Assembly: GCF_014858005.1 (NCBI RefSeq)
Contig: NZ_JACYOT010000004.1
Location: 62,001 to 126,000, forward strand
Direction of reading: 5' to 3'
DNA: 64,000 bases
Source of the DNA: Propioniciclava soli
GTDB taxonomy: Bacteria > Actinomycetota > Actinomycetes > Propionibacteriales > Propionibacteriaceae
In this document: piece by piece, positions 1-35,501 of the stretch
Numbering within the stretch: the first letter of the stretch is position 1
Layout: the number at the start of each line of letters is the position of its first letter
Made by a program: the position numbers and the translations under genes
Notes under the pieces: generated by a model
Told to the model about the DNA's origin: nothing
Seen by the model: the letters and a program-made list of their open reading frames with translations, nothing else
Database searches by the model: none

Positions 1-249
1 CCGGCGCCGGCCTTGACCATGATGATGATGCGGCGCGGCTTCTCCAGTGAGTCCACGAACTCCTCGACGGTCTGCGACGCGATGAAGTGGCCCTCCGGGT
101 GGGCCGTCAGCACGGCCTCCGTCTTGGCCCAGGTGCGGTTGAAGATGGCCGTGCGATACCCGTGGTTGGCGAAGTTGCGGGCCAGGTTGGAGCCCATGAC
201 GGCCATGCCGACCACGCCGATCTGCGCGCTTGAGGTCTTCTCGCTCATG
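1..249 (-). CDS. gnd: 6-phosphogluconate dehydrogenase, decarboxylating (N-terminal part)
   Basis: Only the first 83 codons lie in the window; the gene runs off the left edge. The product oxidises and decarboxylates 6-phosphogluconate to ribulose 5-phosphate in the cytosolic pentose phosphate pathway. The visible part is the N-terminal Rossmann fold: IGVVGMAVMGSNLARNFANH is the family's dinucleotide-binding glycine motif, followed by the NRTWAKTEAV strand-helix and by RRIIIMVKAG, which is where the family has its IxLVKAG strand. ATG at 249 is chosen because a GAAGGGA sequence sits a few bases upstream and the preceding DNA is non-coding. It is divergent from uxaC. Its presence beside uronate genes may be functional, since gluconate made from uronates would enter here after phosphorylation (inference). 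Confidence 0.93.
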
Positions 250-426
250 GTGGTGGTGATCCCTTCGTTGGTGTACCCCGCCCATCTTGCCGCACCCGTG
301 TGGCCCGCGGGCACGCGATTTCCTTCCCTTGCACGGCTTCCTTCCCTGCCACGGCGACGCGCGCCAAGCCCTGCCAACCCCTGCCAACCCCTGCGCAACG
401 CGCCGGGGCGGGGTAAGAATGGGCCC
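250..426. other. Divergent intergenic region with short direct repeats
   Basis: This spacer separates gnd (-) from uxaC (+). It holds a near-identical 16-bp pair (CCTTCCCTTGCACGGC at 322-337 and CCTTCCCTGCCACGGC at 340-355, 18-bp period). A 10-bp tandem CTGCCAACCC follows at 371-380 and 381-390, with a degenerate third copy at 391-400. These could be regulator sites for the neighbouring LacI protein, but no symmetric LacI-type operator is evident. Confidence 0.5.
414..419 (+). promoter_or_regulatory. -10 element TAAGAA for uxaC
   Basis: TAAGAA is followed by exactly 7 nt and then the uxaC ATG. No Shine-Dalgarno sequence fits between, so transcription would begin at or next to the start codon (leaderless mRNA). 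No good -35 box is seen. Confidence 0.45.
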
Positions 427-1845
427 ATGACAGCGCCGTTGACCCTGAACCCGGACCGCCTGTTCCCCGCCGAGCCGCAGACCCGCGCGGTCGCCCGGCG
501 CTTGTACGACCAGGTGAAGGACCTCCCGATCGTCTCCCCGCACGGGCACGTCCCGCCCGTGTGGATCGCCGACGACGTCCCCTTCTCGGACCCGACCAGC
601 CTGCTGCTGAGCCCCGACCACTACGTCAACCGGATCATGCACGGCCAGGGTGTCGACCTCGCCGACCTCGGCGTCCCGCCGGGCCGCGACGGCTTCACCG
701 CCGAGCAGGCGCGCAACGCGTGGCGGATCTTCTGCGAGCACTGGCACCTGTACCGCGGCACGCCGATGAAGTTCTGGATGGAGTCGGAGCTCGTCGACAT
801 CTTCGGCGTCGACGTGCGGCCGTCCGCCGAGACGGCCGACCAGATCTACGACGCCATCTCCGCCAAGCTCGCGACGGACGCGTTCCGCCCCCGGGCGCTG
901 ATGGACACCTTCAACATCACGTTTATCGCGACCACCGACGACCCGCTGGACGACCTCTCCCACCACGCGAAGATCCGCGACGACGCGTCGTTCACGCGCG
1001 AGGTCCGCCCCACCTTCCGACCGGACAAGTACCTCGAGCCCGGCCGCGAGGGCTGGGGAGACCTGATGGACGCCCTCGCCGCCGCCACGGGAGAGGACAC
1101 GGGCACGTTCGCCGGCTGGGTCGCCGCGATGGAGAACCGGCGCGCCTTCTTCAAGGAGAACGGGGCGGTCTCGACCGATCACGCCCACACCGACATGTAC
1201 ATGGCCCCGCTCGACGATGCCGAGGCGGTCTATGCCCGGGCGCGCCGCGGTGAGGCGTCTCCCGAGGAGAACCTGGCGCTGCGTCGGGCCTTCATGTTCG
1301 AGCAGTGCCGCATGGCGTCCGAGGACGGCCTGGTGCTGACCTACCACGCCGCCGTGCACCGCAACCACCACCAGCCGACGTTCGAGCGGTTCGGCGCCGA
1401 CGTGGGTGGCGACATCCCGATGGCGTACAACGTGGTGGAGCCGCTGGAGCCGGTGCTCAACGCCTTCGGCACCCACCCGAACTTCCGAATCGTGCTGTTC
1501 GGCATGGACGAGACGGTCTACAGCCGCGAGATCGGCCCGCTGGCCGGGTTCTACCCCTCCGTGTACGTGGGCGTGCCGTGGTGGTTCATCGACGCCCCCG
1601 ACGCGATCCGCCGCTGGCGCAAGGCGGTCACCGAGTACGGCACGTTCTACAAGAGCTCCGGGTTCATCGACGACACGCGTGCGTTCCTGTCCATTCCGGC
1701 GCGCCACGACATGTCGCGGCGCCTGGACGCAGTCCACCTCGCGGAGCTGGTGGTCGAGCACCGGCTGGAGATCGACGAGGCCGAGGAGGTCGTCCACACC
1801 CTGGTCGCCGACCAGGCGCGGGAAGTCTTCAAGATCGACGGCTGA
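427..1845 (+). CDS. uxaC: Uronate isomerase (glucuronate isomerase)
   Basis: 472 aa, normal for the family. It interconverts D-glucuronate and D-fructuronate (or D-galacturonate and D-tagaturonate), the first step of hexuronate catabolism. It belongs to the amidohydrolase-fold metal enzymes. The N-terminal metal motif is IVSPHGHVPP, with His39 and His41; later landmarks are the FNITFIATTDDP stretch, RPTFRPDKYLEPG and the conserved MAYNVVEPL/PNFRIVLFGMDE region. ATG 427 is preferred over an upstream in-frame ATG because the upstream residues read as translated intergenic DNA, and because a -10 box lies 7 nt before it. It is followed after 49 bp by a LacI regulator. The isomerase product is the substrate of the family to which the 4379-5749 dehydrogenase belongs. 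Confidence 0.95.
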   Translation: MTAPLTLNPDRLFPAEPQTRAVARRLYDQVKDLPIVSPHGHVPPVWIADDVPFSDPTSLLLSPDHYVNRIMHGQGVDLADLGVPPGRDGFTAEQARNAWRIFCEHWHLYRGTPMKFWMESELVDIFGVDVRPSAETADQIYDAISAKLATDAFRPRALMDTFNITFIATTDDPLDDLSHHAKIRDDASFTREVRPTFRPDKYLEPGREGWGDLMDALAAATGEDTGTFAGWVAAMENRRAFFKENGAVSTDHAHTDMYMAPLDDAEAVYARARRGEASPEENLALRRAFMFEQCRMASEDGLVLTYHAAVHRNHHQPTFERFGADVGGDIPMAYNVVEPLEPVLNAFGTHPNFRIVLFGMDETVYSREIGPLAGFYPSVYVGVPWWFIDAPDAIRRWRKAVTEYGTFYKSSGFIDDTRAFLSIPARHDMSRRLDAVHLAELVVEHRLEIDEAEEVVHTLVADQAREVFKIDG

Positions 1846-1881
1846 ACCGCCGTTCGCCCGAGCGTGGGGAGGCCTTTGTTA

Positions 1882-1887
1882 TAGGCT
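1882..1887 (+). promoter_or_regulatory. -10 element TAGGCT for the LacI-type regulator
   Basis: TAGGCT plus 7 nt plus ATG, the same geometry as upstream of uxaC. It implies that the regulator has its own leaderless transcript in addition to any read-through from uxaC. Confidence 0.45.
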
Positions 1888-1894
1888 CGGCCCC

Positions 1895-2899
1895 ATGGCC
1901 AGCGACGCAGCGGGGGGTTCGGACGCCACGATCTACGACGTGGCCCGGGTCGCCGGGGTCAGTCCGTCGACCGTGTCCCGGGCGTTCTCGCGCCCGGGAC
2001 GCGTCAGCGCGCAGACTGCCGAACGGATCCGCAAGGTGGCCGACGATCTCGGTTACCGCTCCCGCGAGGTGAGCCGGACGAGCGCGAAGAGCACCACGAA
2101 GGTGATCGGCGTGGCCGTGGCCGACATCACCAACCCGTTCAACTTCCGCGTCATCCGCGGTTGCCAGGCGGCGGCCGCAGAGGCCGGGTTCGTCGTCACC
2201 CTCAACGACGCCCAGGAGTCGGAGTCGCTGGAGCGGGAGCTGCTGCGCCGCTCACTGCCGCTGCTGGACGGCCTCGTGATCGCCTCGTCGCGGTTGTCGG
2301 ACACCGAACTGCGCACGGTCGCCAAGACGCTGCCCGTCGTGGTGCTGAACCGGCGCGTCGCCGGGTTGCACTGCATCGTGCCCGACATGGGCCACGGCGT
2401 CCGCCGCGCCGCCGAGCACCTCATCGGCCTGGGGCACCGCTCCATCACCTACCTCGCCGGGCCCGAGGCGTCGTGGGCGGACGGCATCCGGTGGCGGGCG
2501 GTGCGCGACTCGGCGACCGAGATGGGGTTCACCGAGCACCGCATCGGGCCGTTCGCGCCCACGCTGCAGGGCGGACGCGGCGCCGCCGAGGTCGTCGCCG
2601 CCCGCCGGTTCAAGGCCGTGGTGTGCTTCAACGACCTCATGGCCATCGGGCTCATCCGCGGCCTGGGGGAGCGTGGCATCCGGGTGCCCGAGCAGGTCAG
2701 CGTGATCGGTTTCGACAACATCTTCGCCTCCGCGATCATCACGCCCGGCCTCACCACCGTGGCCGCGCCGCTGACGATGCTCGGCGACTCCGCCGTGCGC
2801 ACGATCGTGGCAACGTTGAACGGCACCAAGCCGCCGGAGAACCTGCCGGTGACCGTGCCGGTGCGCCTCATGGTGCGCCAGTCCACCGGCCCGGCCTGA
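1895..2899 (+). CDS. LacI-family transcriptional regulator
   Basis: 334 aa. An N-terminal helix-turn-helix and hinge (about residues 12-60: IYDVARVAGVSPSTVSRAF, then AERIRKVADDLGYR) precedes a periplasmic-binding-protein-like effector domain (VIGVAVADITNPFN at the domain start; VVCFNDLMAIGLIRGL and VSVIGFDNI near the C-terminus). Proteins of this family repress sugar-catabolic genes and release DNA on binding a sugar or sugar acid. Wedged between uxaC and the LarA-like/dehydrogenase pair, it most likely controls this hexuronate block; the ligand cannot be read from sequence. It converges on the LarA-like gene. Confidence 0.92.
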   Translation: MASDAAGGSDATIYDVARVAGVSPSTVSRAFSRPGRVSAQTAERIRKVADDLGYRSREVSRTSAKSTTKVIGVAVADITNPFNFRVIRGCQAAAAEAGFVVTLNDAQESESLERELLRRSLPLLDGLVIASSRLSDTELRTVAKTLPVVVLNRRVAGLHCIVPDMGHGVRRAAEHLIGLGHRSITYLAGPEASWADGIRWRAVRDSATEMGFTEHRIGPFAPTLQGGRGAAEVVAARRFKAVVCFNDLMAIGLIRGLGERGIRVPEQVSVIGFDNIFASAIITPGLTTVAAPLTMLGDSAVRTIVATLNGTKPPENLPVTVPVRLMVRQSTGPA

Positions 2900-2911
2900 G
2901 CCGGCCCGCGC

Positions 2912-2953
2912 CAGCCGCGCAGGCGGTCCCGCGGCGTCAGCCGCGCAGGCGGT
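2912..2953. repeat. 16-bp direct repeat copying the 3' end of the LarA-like gene
   Basis: CAGCCGCGCAGGCGGT occurs at 2912-2927 and again at 2938-2953 (26-bp period). The second copy covers the last codons of the minus-strand gene; the first lies outside it, in the convergent spacer. It looks like a local tandem duplication of the gene end. Confidence 0.75.
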
Positions 2954-4232
2954 ACAGCACCTCGCCTGCGTTCTCCTGGACGAAGACGTCCGGGTCGGCC
3001 TTCCACGCCTCGATGTCCACCGCCGACAGCGGCAGGTGGCCGAGGTTGACCTGGCGGCACACCTCTTCGGGGATCTGGGTGCACAGCGTCACCTTGATCC
3101 GGTTGGTCTCGACACCCGTCTCCGGGTCGTAGGTGCCTGCCCCGCGGACGTGCGTGGAGTGGGCCAGGACGCCCTTGGGCACGTGGGAGAACCTGTCCCA
3201 CTGCTTGGTGAAGTACTCAATGGAGTGGTACCCGACCTCGAGGATCTCGGGGTGCTGCTCGGCGACCTGGGTGACGTGGGGGGCGTAGATGATGACCTCG
3301 CCGCCGTCGGCCATGGCGGGCTGCATCTTGTAGCAGCCCTTCGCGGCGGTCCAGATGTCGTCGTAGCGCGTCGGCATCATGGCCAGCACGCGGGTGAACG
3401 GCTTGTCGACGTGGACGACGTGGCTCTCCGAGGCGATCTCGGCGGCGTCGGCCCAGGCGTCCTCGGCGGTGCCGAAGCTGACCGACTCCAGGTCACCCGA
3501 CCCGGACTCCACCACCAGGCACAGCGCCAGGCGCCAGCCGGGGATCATCGCCGAGCCGGCGTTGATGATGGCGCGCACGGGCGTGATGCCGGCCTTGCCG
3601 ATCATCTCCTCGACGCCGATGAGCGCGCCGACCCAGTGCGAGAGGTCGATGGCGTCGTGGGTGGAGCAGCCGGGGATGAAGTACTTGTTGCCCCCCGAGA
3701 TGCCGACCACCTCGTGCGGGAACACCGGGCCGATGACCAGGTTGATGTCGGCCTCGACGACACGGCGGTTCATCTCGACGACGACCTCCTCACGCATCGC
3801 GCCCTGCGACAGCTCGGCCACCTCGTCGGCGCTCAGCGTGCCGATCTCGACGATCTGGCTCGGGTCGTGGAACTCGTGGTTCACCACCGTCAGGCCCGGG
3901 TAGACGTCGTCGATCGTCTGCCCGGCCGGCACGCCGAACCACCGGTCGATGGCGGCCGGGGACATGTAGGAGTGCGTGCCGAGCGCGATGACGGCGGTGA
4001 GGGACGCCACCCGATCAGCCAGATGGCGGTGCACGCTGGCGACCACGAGGGGGAGCGGGCAGCTCCGCGTCCCGTCCGGCACCACGAGCACCACGTTCTT
4101 GCCGTCGAAGTCGACGTCGGCGAACCGGCGGGCGACGAACGCGTCCAGCTCGGCGTCCGACACGTGCTGGTGCGGGCCGCCGATCGTCTCGACGGCGATG
4201 TCGGTGGGCTGATGCCCGATGGATGGGGACAC
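2937..4232 (-). CDS. LarA-family nickel-pincer-dependent 2-hydroxyacid racemase/epimerase
   Basis: 431 aa, the usual LarA length. LarA proteins carry a nickel-pincer nucleotide covalently bound to a lysine and invert the carbinol carbon of 2-hydroxyacids by hydride transfer. The key positions are present with LarA spacing: Asp53/Arg56 in VVPDGTR, His87 in ALGTHS, His173 and, ten residues on, Lys183 in FPHEVVGISGGNKY (LarA His174/Lys184), and a further 16 residues on His199 in LSHW (LarA Ni ligand His200). The GTG start at 4232 is chosen for its upstream AAGGAG. Family members act on lactate, malate, aryl-lactates and also D-gluconate (a C2 epimerase has been reported). Lying beside uxaC and a mannonate-forming dehydrogenase family member, gluconate/mannonate 2-epimerase is my preferred guess. 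Cofactor genes larB/C/E are not in the window. Confidence 0.85.
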   Translation of the reverse strand: MSPSIGHQPTDIAVETIGGPHQHVSDAELDAFVARRFADVDFDGKNVVLVVPDGTRSCPLPLVVASVHRHLADRVASLTAVIALGTHSYMSPAAIDRWFGVPAGQTIDDVYPGLTVVNHEFHDPSQIVEIGTLSADEVAELSQGAMREEVVVEMNRRVVEADINLVIGPVFPHEVVGISGGNKYFIPGCSTHDAIDLSHWVGALIGVEEMIGKAGITPVRAIINAGSAMIPGWRLALCLVVESGSGDLESVSFGTAEDAWADAAEIASESHVVHVDKPFTRVLAMMPTRYDDIWTAAKGCYKMQPAMADGGEVIIYAPHVTQVAEQHPEILEVGYHSIEYFTKQWDRFSHVPKGVLAHSTHVRGAGTYDPETGVETNRIKVTLCTQIPEEVCRQVNLGHLPLSAVDIEAWKADPDVFVQENAGEVLYRLRG

Positions 4233-4269
4233 GGGGGCTCCTTGGGTCGGCACCGCGGATGGTGGTGAC

Positions 4270-4275
4270 AGCATA
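4270..4275 (-). promoter_or_regulatory. Candidate -10 (TATGCT) for the LarA-like gene
   Basis: On the minus strand TATGCT lies 37 nt before the GTG start, leaving room for a short leader containing AAGGAG. No convincing -35 element at standard spacing. Confidence 0.3.
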
Positions 4276-4340
4276 CGAGCCTGTGGGTGCCGGTGCAGGG
4301 CAACCGCGTGCACCCGCGGGTGCGCGGCAAGCCAACGCCC

Positions 4341-4346
4341 TAGAGT
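4341..4346 (+). promoter_or_regulatory. -10 element TAGAGT for the dehydrogenase gene
   Basis: TAGAGT sits 32 nt upstream of the GTG at 4379. The resulting leader carries a GAGAAAGG ribosome-binding site, so this gene, unlike uxaC, would have a normal leader. Confidence 0.4.
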
Positions 4347-4378
4347 CGGGAGGGAACCCGAGAGAAAGGCCCGTTGTC

Positions 4379-5749
4379 GTGTCCCGTCGACTCTCCCGCA
4401 GCCAGGATGGCCGCCCCGCTGCACCCGTGCGCATCGTCCACCTCGGCCTGGGCAACTTCTTCCGCGCCCACACCGCCATGTACACCGAGCACGCGCCCGA
4501 CGCCGACGCGTGGGGCATCGCTGCGTTCACCGGCCGCAGCTACGCCATGGCCGAGACCATGGAGGCCCAGGACGGCCTCTACACCCTCGTCGTGCAGAAC
4601 CCCGAGGGCAACGACTACCAGGTGATCAGCTCCGTCGTGGCCACCCACCCCGGCCCGGACGTCGAGCAGCTGCTGACCTACTTCCGCGACCCGCAGGTCG
4701 CGATCATCACGTCCACGGTCACCGAGGCCGGCTACGTCCGCACCAGCGGCGGCGGGCTCGACGTCGACCACGACGGCGTGAAGGCCGACGTCGAGGCGCT
4801 CAAGGGTGGGGACCTGGCGTCCGTGACGACCGTGCCCGGCAAGTTCGTGGCCGGCCTGGTGGCACGCCGCGAGGCGGACGCCGGCGGCATCACCTTCGTG
4901 CCGTGCGACAACGTGCCCGACTCCGGGCACATGGTCGAGACGGTCGTCCGGGACCTGGCCGGGCTCGTGGACGACTCGCTGCTGGAGTGGGTCGACGCCA
5001 ACGTCTCGTTCGTGACGACGATGGTCGACCGCATCACTCCGGGTGTCACCGACGAGGTGCGCGAGGCCGTCGAGGCCGACACCGAGGTGGAGGATCCGGC
5101 CGCCGTGGCCACCGAGCCCTTCACCGAATGGGTGCTGGCCGGGGAGTTCAAGAACGGCCGCCCGGCCTGGGACGAGGCCGGCGCCACGTTCGTGGACGAC
5201 ATCGTGCCCCACGAGCTGCGCAAGCTGTGGCTGCTCAACGGCTCCCACTCGCTTATGGCCTACGCCGCGACGATCGTCGGACGCCCCACGGTGTACGAGG
5301 CCATCAGCGACCCGACCGTTGCCGGCTGGGTCAACGACTGGTGGGACGTCGCCGCCAAGCACCTGCCCCTGCCCGCCGAGGAGATCGCCGCCTACCGCGA
5401 GGCGCTGCTCGAACGCTTCGGCAACCCCCGCATGAAGGACGCGCTCGCCCGCATCGCGGCCGACGGCTCGCAGAAGATCCCGATCCGCATCGTGCCGGCG
5501 CTGAACGCCGAGCGCGCCGACGGGGGAGAGCCCATCGGCGCCGAGCGCGCCGTCGCCGCCTGGGTGCTGCACCTGCGCGGCCTGGGCGCACCGGTCAACG
5601 ACGCGCGCGGCGACGAGGTGACGTCGCTCGCCGAGGGCACCCTGGAGGAGGCCGTCGTCCGGGTGTGCGACTACCTGTCCATCGCGGACGCAGGGGCCCG
5701 CTCGTCCATCCTGACCCTGGCCCAGGAGCTGGAGGCCGCCGCGGCCTGA
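4379..5749 (+). CDS. Mannitol dehydrogenase/fructuronate reductase family oxidoreductase
   Basis: 456 aa. It belongs to the polyol-specific long-chain dehydrogenases, which include fructuronate reductase UxuB (fructuronate to D-mannonate with NADH) and mannitol 2-dehydrogenase. The N-terminal NAD-binding strand VRIVHLGLGNFFRAHTAMY, the central TMVDRITP and the catalytic signature K-x4-N-x2-H (Lys282, Asn287, His290 in KLWLLNGSH) are all present. The GTG start at 4379 has GAGAAAGG upstream. The gene is divergent from the LarA-like gene and close to uxaC, so fructuronate reduction is the likeliest role; mannitol or other polyol oxidation is the alternative, as sequence motifs alone do not separate them. 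No mannonate dehydratase (uxuA) lies in the window. Confidence 0.88.
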   Translation: MSRRLSRSQDGRPAAPVRIVHLGLGNFFRAHTAMYTEHAPDADAWGIAAFTGRSYAMAETMEAQDGLYTLVVQNPEGNDYQVISSVVATHPGPDVEQLLTYFRDPQVAIITSTVTEAGYVRTSGGGLDVDHDGVKADVEALKGGDLASVTTVPGKFVAGLVARREADAGGITFVPCDNVPDSGHMVETVVRDLAGLVDDSLLEWVDANVSFVTTMVDRITPGVTDEVREAVEADTEVEDPAAVATEPFTEWVLAGEFKNGRPAWDEAGATFVDDIVPHELRKLWLLNGSHSLMAYAATIVGRPTVYEAISDPTVAGWVNDWWDVAAKHLPLPAEEIAAYREALLERFGNPRMKDALARIAADGSQKIPIRIVPALNAERADGGEPIGAERAVAAWVLHLRGLGAPVNDARGDEVTSLAEGTLEEAVVRVCDYLSIADAGARSSILTLAQELEAAAA

Positions 5750-5794
5750 CCCCCGGTGTGTGAGCCCACCTGGGTTGGCCGCCCACCTGGAATG

Positions 5795-5848
5795 GCATTT
5801 GGACCCGAGGAAATGGCGCCATGGCGCCATTTCCTCGGGTCCAAATGC
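5795..5848. repeat. 54-bp perfect palindrome, copy 1
   Basis: A loopless perfect inverted repeat whose left arm begins GCATTTGGACCCGAGGAAAT and whose centre is two tandem copies of ATGGCGCC. It lies between two convergent stop codons (dehydrogenase at 5749, aldo/keto reductase at 5880). An identical copy is at 6975 and a one-base variant at 35448. There is no T-tract, so it is not a textbook intrinsic terminator, though it could form a very stable RNA hairpin from either strand. Confidence 0.95.
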
Positions 5849-5879
5849 GGTGTGCGGAGGCCGCGGCGTCCCGCTCGGG

Positions 5880-7178
<1,299 letters not shown>

Positions 7179-35447: not shown

Positions 35448-35501
35448 GCATTTGGACCCGAGGAAATGGCGCCATGGCGCCATTTTCTCGGGTCCAAATG
35501 C
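35448..35501. repeat. 54-bp palindrome, copy 3 (one-base variant)
   Basis: Matches the copies at 5795 and 6975 except one base in the right arm (TTTTCTCGG instead of TTTCCTCGG). In RNA this changes a G-C to a G-U pair, so the stem is kept. Lies in the 162-bp spacer between the DsbA-like stop and the valS start, both on the minus strand. Confidence 0.95.

Follow-up and report, generated by a model that had tools for sequence, protein, structure and literature searches.

Gene content of the cluster

We analyzed a 64,000-nucleotide stretch of DNA from Propioniciclava soli (hereafter the window), which corresponds to positions 62001-126000 of contig C34 in an actinobacterial genome of 3.80 Mb and 65 contigs. 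Five genes follow one another at its start: gnd, uxaC, a gene for a LacI-family regulator, larA, whose product is a homologue of the lactate racemase LarA, and uxuB, which encodes an oxidoreductase of the UxuB/mannitol dehydrogenase family (Table 1). An earlier note, written from the sequence letters alone, had described this contiguous arrangement and read it as a shunt leading from glucuronate to ribulose 5-phosphate; Pfam and NCBIfam matches bear out all five gene assignments. We think it likely that the cluster specifies a route feeding hexuronates into the pentose phosphate pathway by nickel-dependent epimerisation of mannonate to gluconate.

Table 1. Features of the putative uronate cluster (window coordinates)
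Feature	Position	Strand	Evidence
gnd, 5' end (6-phosphogluconate dehydrogenase)	1..248, ATG at 248	-	Pfam 6PGD 392 bits, NAD_binding_2 157 bits
uxaC, glucuronate isomerase	427..1845	+	NCBIfam NF002794 equivalog 529 bits (cut-off 387); Pfam UxaC 255 bits
LacI-family regulator	1895..2899	+	Pfam and NCBIfam family searches
LarA homologue, predicted D-mannonate/D-gluconate 2-epimerase (GntE-like)	2937..4274 (ATG) or 2937..4232 (GTG start)	-	Lar_N 73.2 bits (Pfam cut-off 23.3)
LacI-type operator-like site GGCAACCGCGTGCA, weak	4299..4312	.	three mismatches to GGCAACCGGTTGCC; larA/uxuB divergent promoter
UxuB/mannitol-dehydrogenase-family oxidoreductase, predicted fructuronate reductase	4379..5749	+	Pfam Mannitol_dh 132 bits, Mannitol_dh_C 91 bits

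The window includes only the first 248 bases of gnd, the whole gene extending over C34:60788-62248. The UxuB-like protein carries the expected Pfam domains and resembles 4im7 (YdfI, 220 bits) and the mannitol dehydrogenase 1lj8 (217 bits) best among PDB entries. NCBIfam places D-arabinitol 4-dehydrogenase (263 bits, cut-off 600) ahead of fructuronate reductase NF011611 (242 bits, cut-off 603). The membership in a fructuronate reductase family suggested earlier thus holds at the level of domains and fails at that of the curated family; it is genomic context that leads us to predict a fructuronate reductase.

A GntE-like member of the LarA family

The LarA homologue is the sole Lar_N match in the whole genome. 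Its equivalents of the catalytic residues D72, H108, H174 and K298 of LarA are D65, H99, H185 and K310, and those of the cofactor residues R75, K184 and H200 are R68, K195 and H211; the earlier note had recognized the cofactor lysine and three key histidines by their LarA spacing. All seven residues are invariant in the 47 aligned members of the clade, that is, the window protein, 44 proteins from 80 fetched loci, and those of L022 and L023. The corresponding mapping to R41, E155, K164 and H180 of PDB entry 4NAR, which is the GntE2 protein of Thermotoga maritima, agrees with PMC7583248 (here and below, PMC articles are cited from excerpts).

Four further positions, E186, V187, A369 and H370, are likewise invariant in the 47 proteins. 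They correspond to F175, F176, W358 and T359 of LarA, and E, V, A and H are the usual residues of GntE enzymes at these places in the excerpt of PMC11770544, a signature also treated in PMC7583248. E186 and V187 were anchored by numbering, and A369 and H370 by sequence alignment to A351 and H352 of 4NAR together with the signature of PMC11770544.

Similarity searches point the same way. Among solved structures 4NAR is the best match (208 bits, 1.4e-60, nearly full length), far ahead of the lactate racemase 2YJG (34 bits) and the malate racemase Mar2 (24 bits); a three-sequence profile search gave 269, 41 and 46 bits, respectively. In a maximum-likelihood tree of 56 rows, the clade groups with 4NAR and distant actinobacterial relatives, apart from LarA and Mar2, at a support of 100/99; branches are long, some reference sequences are partial, branching order on the GntE side is not resolved and GntE1 is not among the rows. 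The best NCBIfam model is LarAH group 18, NF052594 ('putative hexonate epimerase'), which all 47 clade members match below an E-value of 0.001. The window protein reaches 166 bits, short of the cut-off of 500, and as GntE2 itself scores only 180 bits, the clade resembles group 18 no more than GntE2 does; the protein is GntE-like and not assignable to a curated group. The lactate racemase model NF033504 gives 53 bits against a cut-off of 460, and the loop has E-V in place of F175/F176. Grouping of the protein with GntE-type D-gluconate 2-epimerases, and not with lactate racemases, is therefore supported by structure match, signature and phylogeny, as the earlier note had anticipated.

Another family of the phylum (f13) holds distant LarA homologues of about 30% identity, two of them in one genome (L024-L028). 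In the tree these homologues join the GntE side, with the exception of L028, whose branch is very long.

Cofactor genes and conserved linkage

The genome search for larB, larC and larE that the earlier note had proposed found all three, together at about 337-341 kb of contig C45 and each above its NCBIfam cut-off (larB 258 bits, larE 268 bits, first domain of larC 174 bits). Between larE and larC lies an open reading frame of 329 amino acids (L010:10839-11828), the repeats of which look terpene-cyclase-like by eye.

At least 567 LarA relatives were confirmed among named genomes, of which the best 80 were kept as loci. The nearest named homologues among the matches listed are 76-80% identical and belong to Propioniciclava (Propionibacteriaceae). 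Across 396 genomes sampled evenly from the phylum, seven, including the present one, had a match of E 1e-30 or better, two others at more than 50% identity.

Linkage was counted within 9 kb of larA in the 57 of 80 loci in which the gene has 5 kb or more of flank on each side. We found uxuB in 39 of them (37 at 40% identity or more), uxaC in 36 (36), lacI in 36 (34), larE in 34 (31), larB in 33 (33), larC in 25 (25) and gnd in 13 (13); 40 have uxaC or uxuB, and in 23 uxaC is the divergent neighbor of larA at a distance of 400 bases or less. Over all 80 loci, gnd was found in 18. The association of uronate genes with larA seen in the window is thus kept in relatives, together with gnd, larEBC and, in some, a gluconokinase-type gene.

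A palindrome in the promoters of the cluster

The promoters of these clusters share a palindrome, GGCAACCGGTTGCC. Allowing up to two mismatches, we counted 31 sites in core intergenic DNA (20,714 bases) and 46 in the remainder of these loci (1,436,325 bases), a density about 47-fold higher in core promoters that is inflated because the consensus was derived from the same promoters that were counted; some of the 46 other sites also lie upstream of lacI. In a shuffle control, 25 of the 94 regions contained the palindrome, whereas shuffles gave 0.07 on average. By promoter, the sites were found in 19 of 34 uxaC/larA regions, three of six lacI/larE regions, three of six uxuB/larA regions and one of nine gnd/lacI regions (four of nine with three mismatches).

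In the window, the operator-like site between larA and uxuB is weak by itself, as nine sites with up to three mismatches occur over the full length. No site of this type was found in the gnd/uxaC and uxaC/lacI gaps, and a palindrome scan confined to the window's own promoters returned no LacI-type site. This GGCAAC-CG-GTTGCC palindrome is probably the site through which the LacI-type regulator acts on the cluster, to judge from promoter sequences that are clear in relatives and weak in P. soli.

Kinases linked to larA

Kinase genes of three unrelated families accompany larA in relatives. An FGGY kinase gene lies immediately 3' of uxuB in 14 of the 80 loci, and the best NCBIfam model for all 14 products is FGGY gluconokinase, ahead of xylulokinase. 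Twelve score 311-375 bits and two give partial matches (L040, 130 bits; L068, 149 bits), none reaching the cut-off of 648.55. A GntK/IdnK-type gluconokinase above cut-off occurs in four loci: in L058 it begins at a GTG and shares four bases with the end of larA, it follows larA by about 100 bases in L095, and it adjoins larC in L057 and L098. Finally, a PfkB kinase gene is found directly 3' of gnd and ahead of larA in L104 and L113, and after uxuB in L086; these three kinases are 74-83% identical among themselves.

A gene of the present genome, C34:391778-392851 (L117:9739-10854), encodes a PfkB-family protein 76-78% identical to the linked PfkB kinases. From our reading of the frames, it is a lone gene after gatCAB. 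By its relatives' linkage we regard it as the best gluconokinase candidate of this organism. Its sequence has the motif GGGDG where a 2-keto-3-deoxygluconate (KDG)-kinase-like paralogue has GGGDS, and this PfkB kinase is more conserved between families (76-78%) than LarA. We rejected two other candidates. The paralogue itself, at C34:189 kb, is 32-33% identical to the linked PfkB kinases, versus 76-78% for the gene at 391 kb. The FGGY kinase of L016 scores 268 bits with XylB versus 175 bits with gluconokinase, and is 23-32% identical to the operon kinases. In the open-access literature, searched by title or start of abstract and with subscription papers mostly outside its scope, we found no PfkB gluconokinase.

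Taken further, these observations may describe a dedicated regulon under LacI control that comprises the uronate genes, the nickel epimerase, larEBC and gnd, and in which three unrelated kinase families serve as gluconokinase, one of them, a PfkB-family gluconokinase not recognized before, being the one used by P. soli; we put this forward tentatively and hold it somewhat doubtful.

A predicted route from glucuronate to ribulose 5-phosphate

In the route that we propose, UxaC would convert D-glucuronate to D-fructuronate, which the UxuB-family enzyme would reduce to D-mannonate. The LarA homologue, carrying a nickel-pincer cofactor supplied by LarB, LarC and LarE, whose genes lie on another contig, would invert C2 to give D-gluconate. 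A kinase, encoded outside the cluster in P. soli, would then form 6-phosphogluconate, and Gnd would convert this to ribulose 5-phosphate by oxidative decarboxylation. Every one of these reactions is predicted from sequence, and the same holds for what the UxuB-like enzyme acts on, for the choice of kinase and for the direction of flux. The predicted mannonate-gluconate step feeding 6-phosphogluconate is well supported by what is observed at these loci: their gene content, the GntE signature and the kinship to GntE2 in the tree, larB, larE and larC, the conserved linkage and the density of operators.

Several points weigh against the route. The genome has no match to TIGR01313 (GntK-type gluconokinase) and its FGGY kinases fit other families better than gluconokinase in seven of seven cases, so that the gluconokinase the earlier note had looked to for support was found in no curated type. 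The PfkB candidate stands alone and far from the cluster, its nearest named families are KDG-kinase-like, and no operator site was found near it. The operator of P. soli is itself weak, with just one three-mismatch site in the cluster promoters. Neither uxaC nor uxuB occurs within 9 kb of larA in 17 of the 57 loci, and the sequence leaves the substrate of the UxuB-like enzyme unsettled, no NCBIfam cut-off being passed. According to the excerpt of PMC7583248, the Michaelis constant (KM) for mannonate of GntE1 from Corynebacterium glutamicum, the characterized actinobacterial enzyme, is 120 mM, and the authors question whether mannonate is its native substrate.

Mannonate may also be consumed otherwise. 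The genome encodes a mannonate dehydratase, ManD (669 bits, cut-off 550), on contig C10, directly after an L-idonate-5-dehydrogenase-like gene (L123:8724-11090), as well as the KDG-kinase-like PfkB protein and a 2-keto-3-deoxy-6-phosphogluconate (KDPG) aldolase at about C34:182-191 kb, beside uxaE. With all three present, mannonate can have two fates and the organism is not forced to use the shunt. The earlier note had listed uxuA, kdgK and kdgA as missing and concluded that the mannonate dehydratase/KDG route is bypassed. The list is right for the cluster, and uxuA (PF03786) was not found anywhere in the genome either; kdgA and a KDG-kinase-like gene do exist elsewhere, not beside uxaC, and the bypass is overstated for this organism. 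What stands of the proposed shunt is its core, a GntE-type step linking uronate and pentose phosphate metabolism. The argument that absence of uxuA proves a bypass was rejected, given ManD and the background: the gene is absent from 48 of 49 searched larA-clade genomes (present in one) and from 384 of 396 genomes of the phylum sample (present in 12), and with such rarity its absence carries no weight.

The uxaE region is a second hexuronate-type locus (L011:2196-13295; C34:182-193 kb, outside the window). Its genes encode UxaE (tagaturonate epimerase, 397 bits), the KDG-kinase-like PfkB protein, the KDPG aldolase, a short-chain dehydrogenase and Gfo/Idh-type oxidoreductases.

Flux might run the other way in P. 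soli, from gluconate to mannonate by the LarA homologue and onward through ManD, KDG kinase and KDPG aldolase, so that no gluconokinase would be needed. A ManD above cut-off, the aldolase, the KDG-kinase-like gene and the missing curated gluconokinase all fit such a scheme. It is gnd, however, and not manD, that adjoins the cluster, and gnd lies within 9 kb of larA in 13 of the 57 loci of relatives; gluconokinase-type genes stand in the larA locus of relatives, and manD is on another contig next to the idonate-dehydrogenase-like gene. We consider this reversal unlikely.

Equally unlikely, in our view, is that the native substrate is another hexonate, an aldarate or a uronate, for example the glucarate/mannarate pair that the authors of PMC7583248 suggest for GntE1 in the excerpt. 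Their doubt and the high KM of that enzyme speak for it, NCBIfam reaches just 'putative hexonate epimerase' at 166 bits against 500, and the genome contains a glucarate-dehydratase-like gene and a talarate/galactarate dehydratase gene. On the other side, GntE1 may be of another group, since the C. glutamicum control genome has no Lar_N match, in contrast to 47 of 47 clade members. Furthermore, the E-V-A-H signature and the closeness to GntE2 argue for mannonate/gluconate, and this is the pair common to uxaC, uxuB, the gluconokinase types and gnd, with which larA is co-located; no aldarate dehydratase gene was seen near larA.

A still less probable variant places the kinase first: mannonate would be phosphorylated and the LarA homologue would act as a 6-phosphomannonate 2-epimerase. 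Both activities were demonstrated in cell extracts of Lactobacillus suebicus, genes unknown (PMC6978723, excerpt), and several linked kinases of relatives are not classical GntK. Yet a GntK-type kinase gene comes immediately after larA in L095 and is translationally coupled to it in L058, and the closest characterized enzyme uses unphosphorylated mannonate (PMC7583248, excerpt). Finally, an ordinary lactate racemase placed next to uronate genes by chance, which Lar_N membership would accommodate, is very improbable and was rejected on scores (208 versus 34 bits with 4NAR and 2YJG), on the replacement of F175, F176 and W358 by E, V and A, on the tree and on the conserved uronate linkage.

Other features near the cluster

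Downstream of the cluster lie an aldo-keto reductase gene and then pyrimidine genes. A near-perfect palindrome of about 54 bases, GCATTTGGACCCGAGGAAATGGCGCCATGGCGCCATTTCCTCGGGTCCAAATGC, is dispersed in intergenic DNA at window positions 5792-5851, 6967-7036 and 35448-35501 and at L030:10550-10607 (contig C65). One copy lies just 3' of uxuB, and the repeat resembles repetitive extragenic palindromes or terminators.

Relation to known systems and significance

The shunt from mannonate to gluconate is not new as a pathway. In the excerpts of PMC6978723 and PMC7583248, it is traced to a proposal for T. maritima by Rodionova et al. in 2012, and the epimerisation was shown in 2020 by the Desguin group for C. 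glutamicum GntE1 and T. maritima GntE2 (PMC7583248); PMC11770544 added a eukaryotic GntE-type enzyme. As of 2020, there was no proof that the shunt operates in vivo, according to the excerpt of PMC6978723. What is new is an actinobacterial clade whose loci are organized like a regulon, and the variety of kinases, with the PfkB candidate foremost. Our search of the open-access literature, with subscription papers mostly outside its scope, found no description of an actinobacterial larA-uronate cluster.

GntE2 (LarAH20, TM0442 region, 4NAR) belongs, like the P. soli protein, to the LarA superfamily, with E at the first loop position and the same catalytic and cofactor residues. It is reported to be encoded with a fructuronate reductase and a gluconokinase and has been proposed to lead mannonate into the pentose phosphate pathway. 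UxaE is present in both genomes. The actinobacterial clade shares about 31% identity or less with GntE2 over the aligned part and, unlike T. maritima, has linked gnd, a LacI regulator, often larEBC, and a kinase from one of three unrelated families, which in P. soli lies outside the cluster. GntE1 (LarAH19) is also actinobacterial, has D-gluconate 2-epimerase activity and a uronic-acid genomic context (PMC7583248, excerpt); it differs by its very high KM and, to judge from the lack of a Lar_N match in its genome, probably belongs to another group. LarAH group 18 is the best curated family for the P. soli protein, at a score far below its cut-off.

The galacturonate pathway of L. suebicus (PMC6978723, excerpt) likewise joins an isomerase route to 6-phosphogluconate through mannonate. 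There, mannonate is phosphorylated before epimerisation, the genes are unknown and no link to LarA is shown. The canonical hexuronate isomerase route (UxaC, UxuB, mannonate dehydratase, KdgK and KdgA) has its first two steps in common with the cluster, which carries a C2 epimerase and gnd in place of the dehydratase; ManD, the KDG-kinase-like gene and KdgA of this route also exist in P. soli.

So far the shunt has been supported by gene context in Thermotoga and by activity in vitro, and the authors of PMC7583248 do not settle, in the excerpt, what the actinobacterial enzyme naturally acts on. Because the linkage is conserved and the promoter palindrome is shared among actinobacteria that include several cultured isolates, simple knock-outs can test the question. 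These features also point to a candidate new kind of gluconokinase in the PfkB family. The shunt would yield ribulose 5-phosphate and CO2, and not pyruvate and glyceraldehyde 3-phosphate, which matters for engineering on uronate-rich feedstocks, and through it the nickel-pincer cofactor, a rare one, would gain a role in an everyday pathway for sugar acids among bacteria that are largely aerobic.

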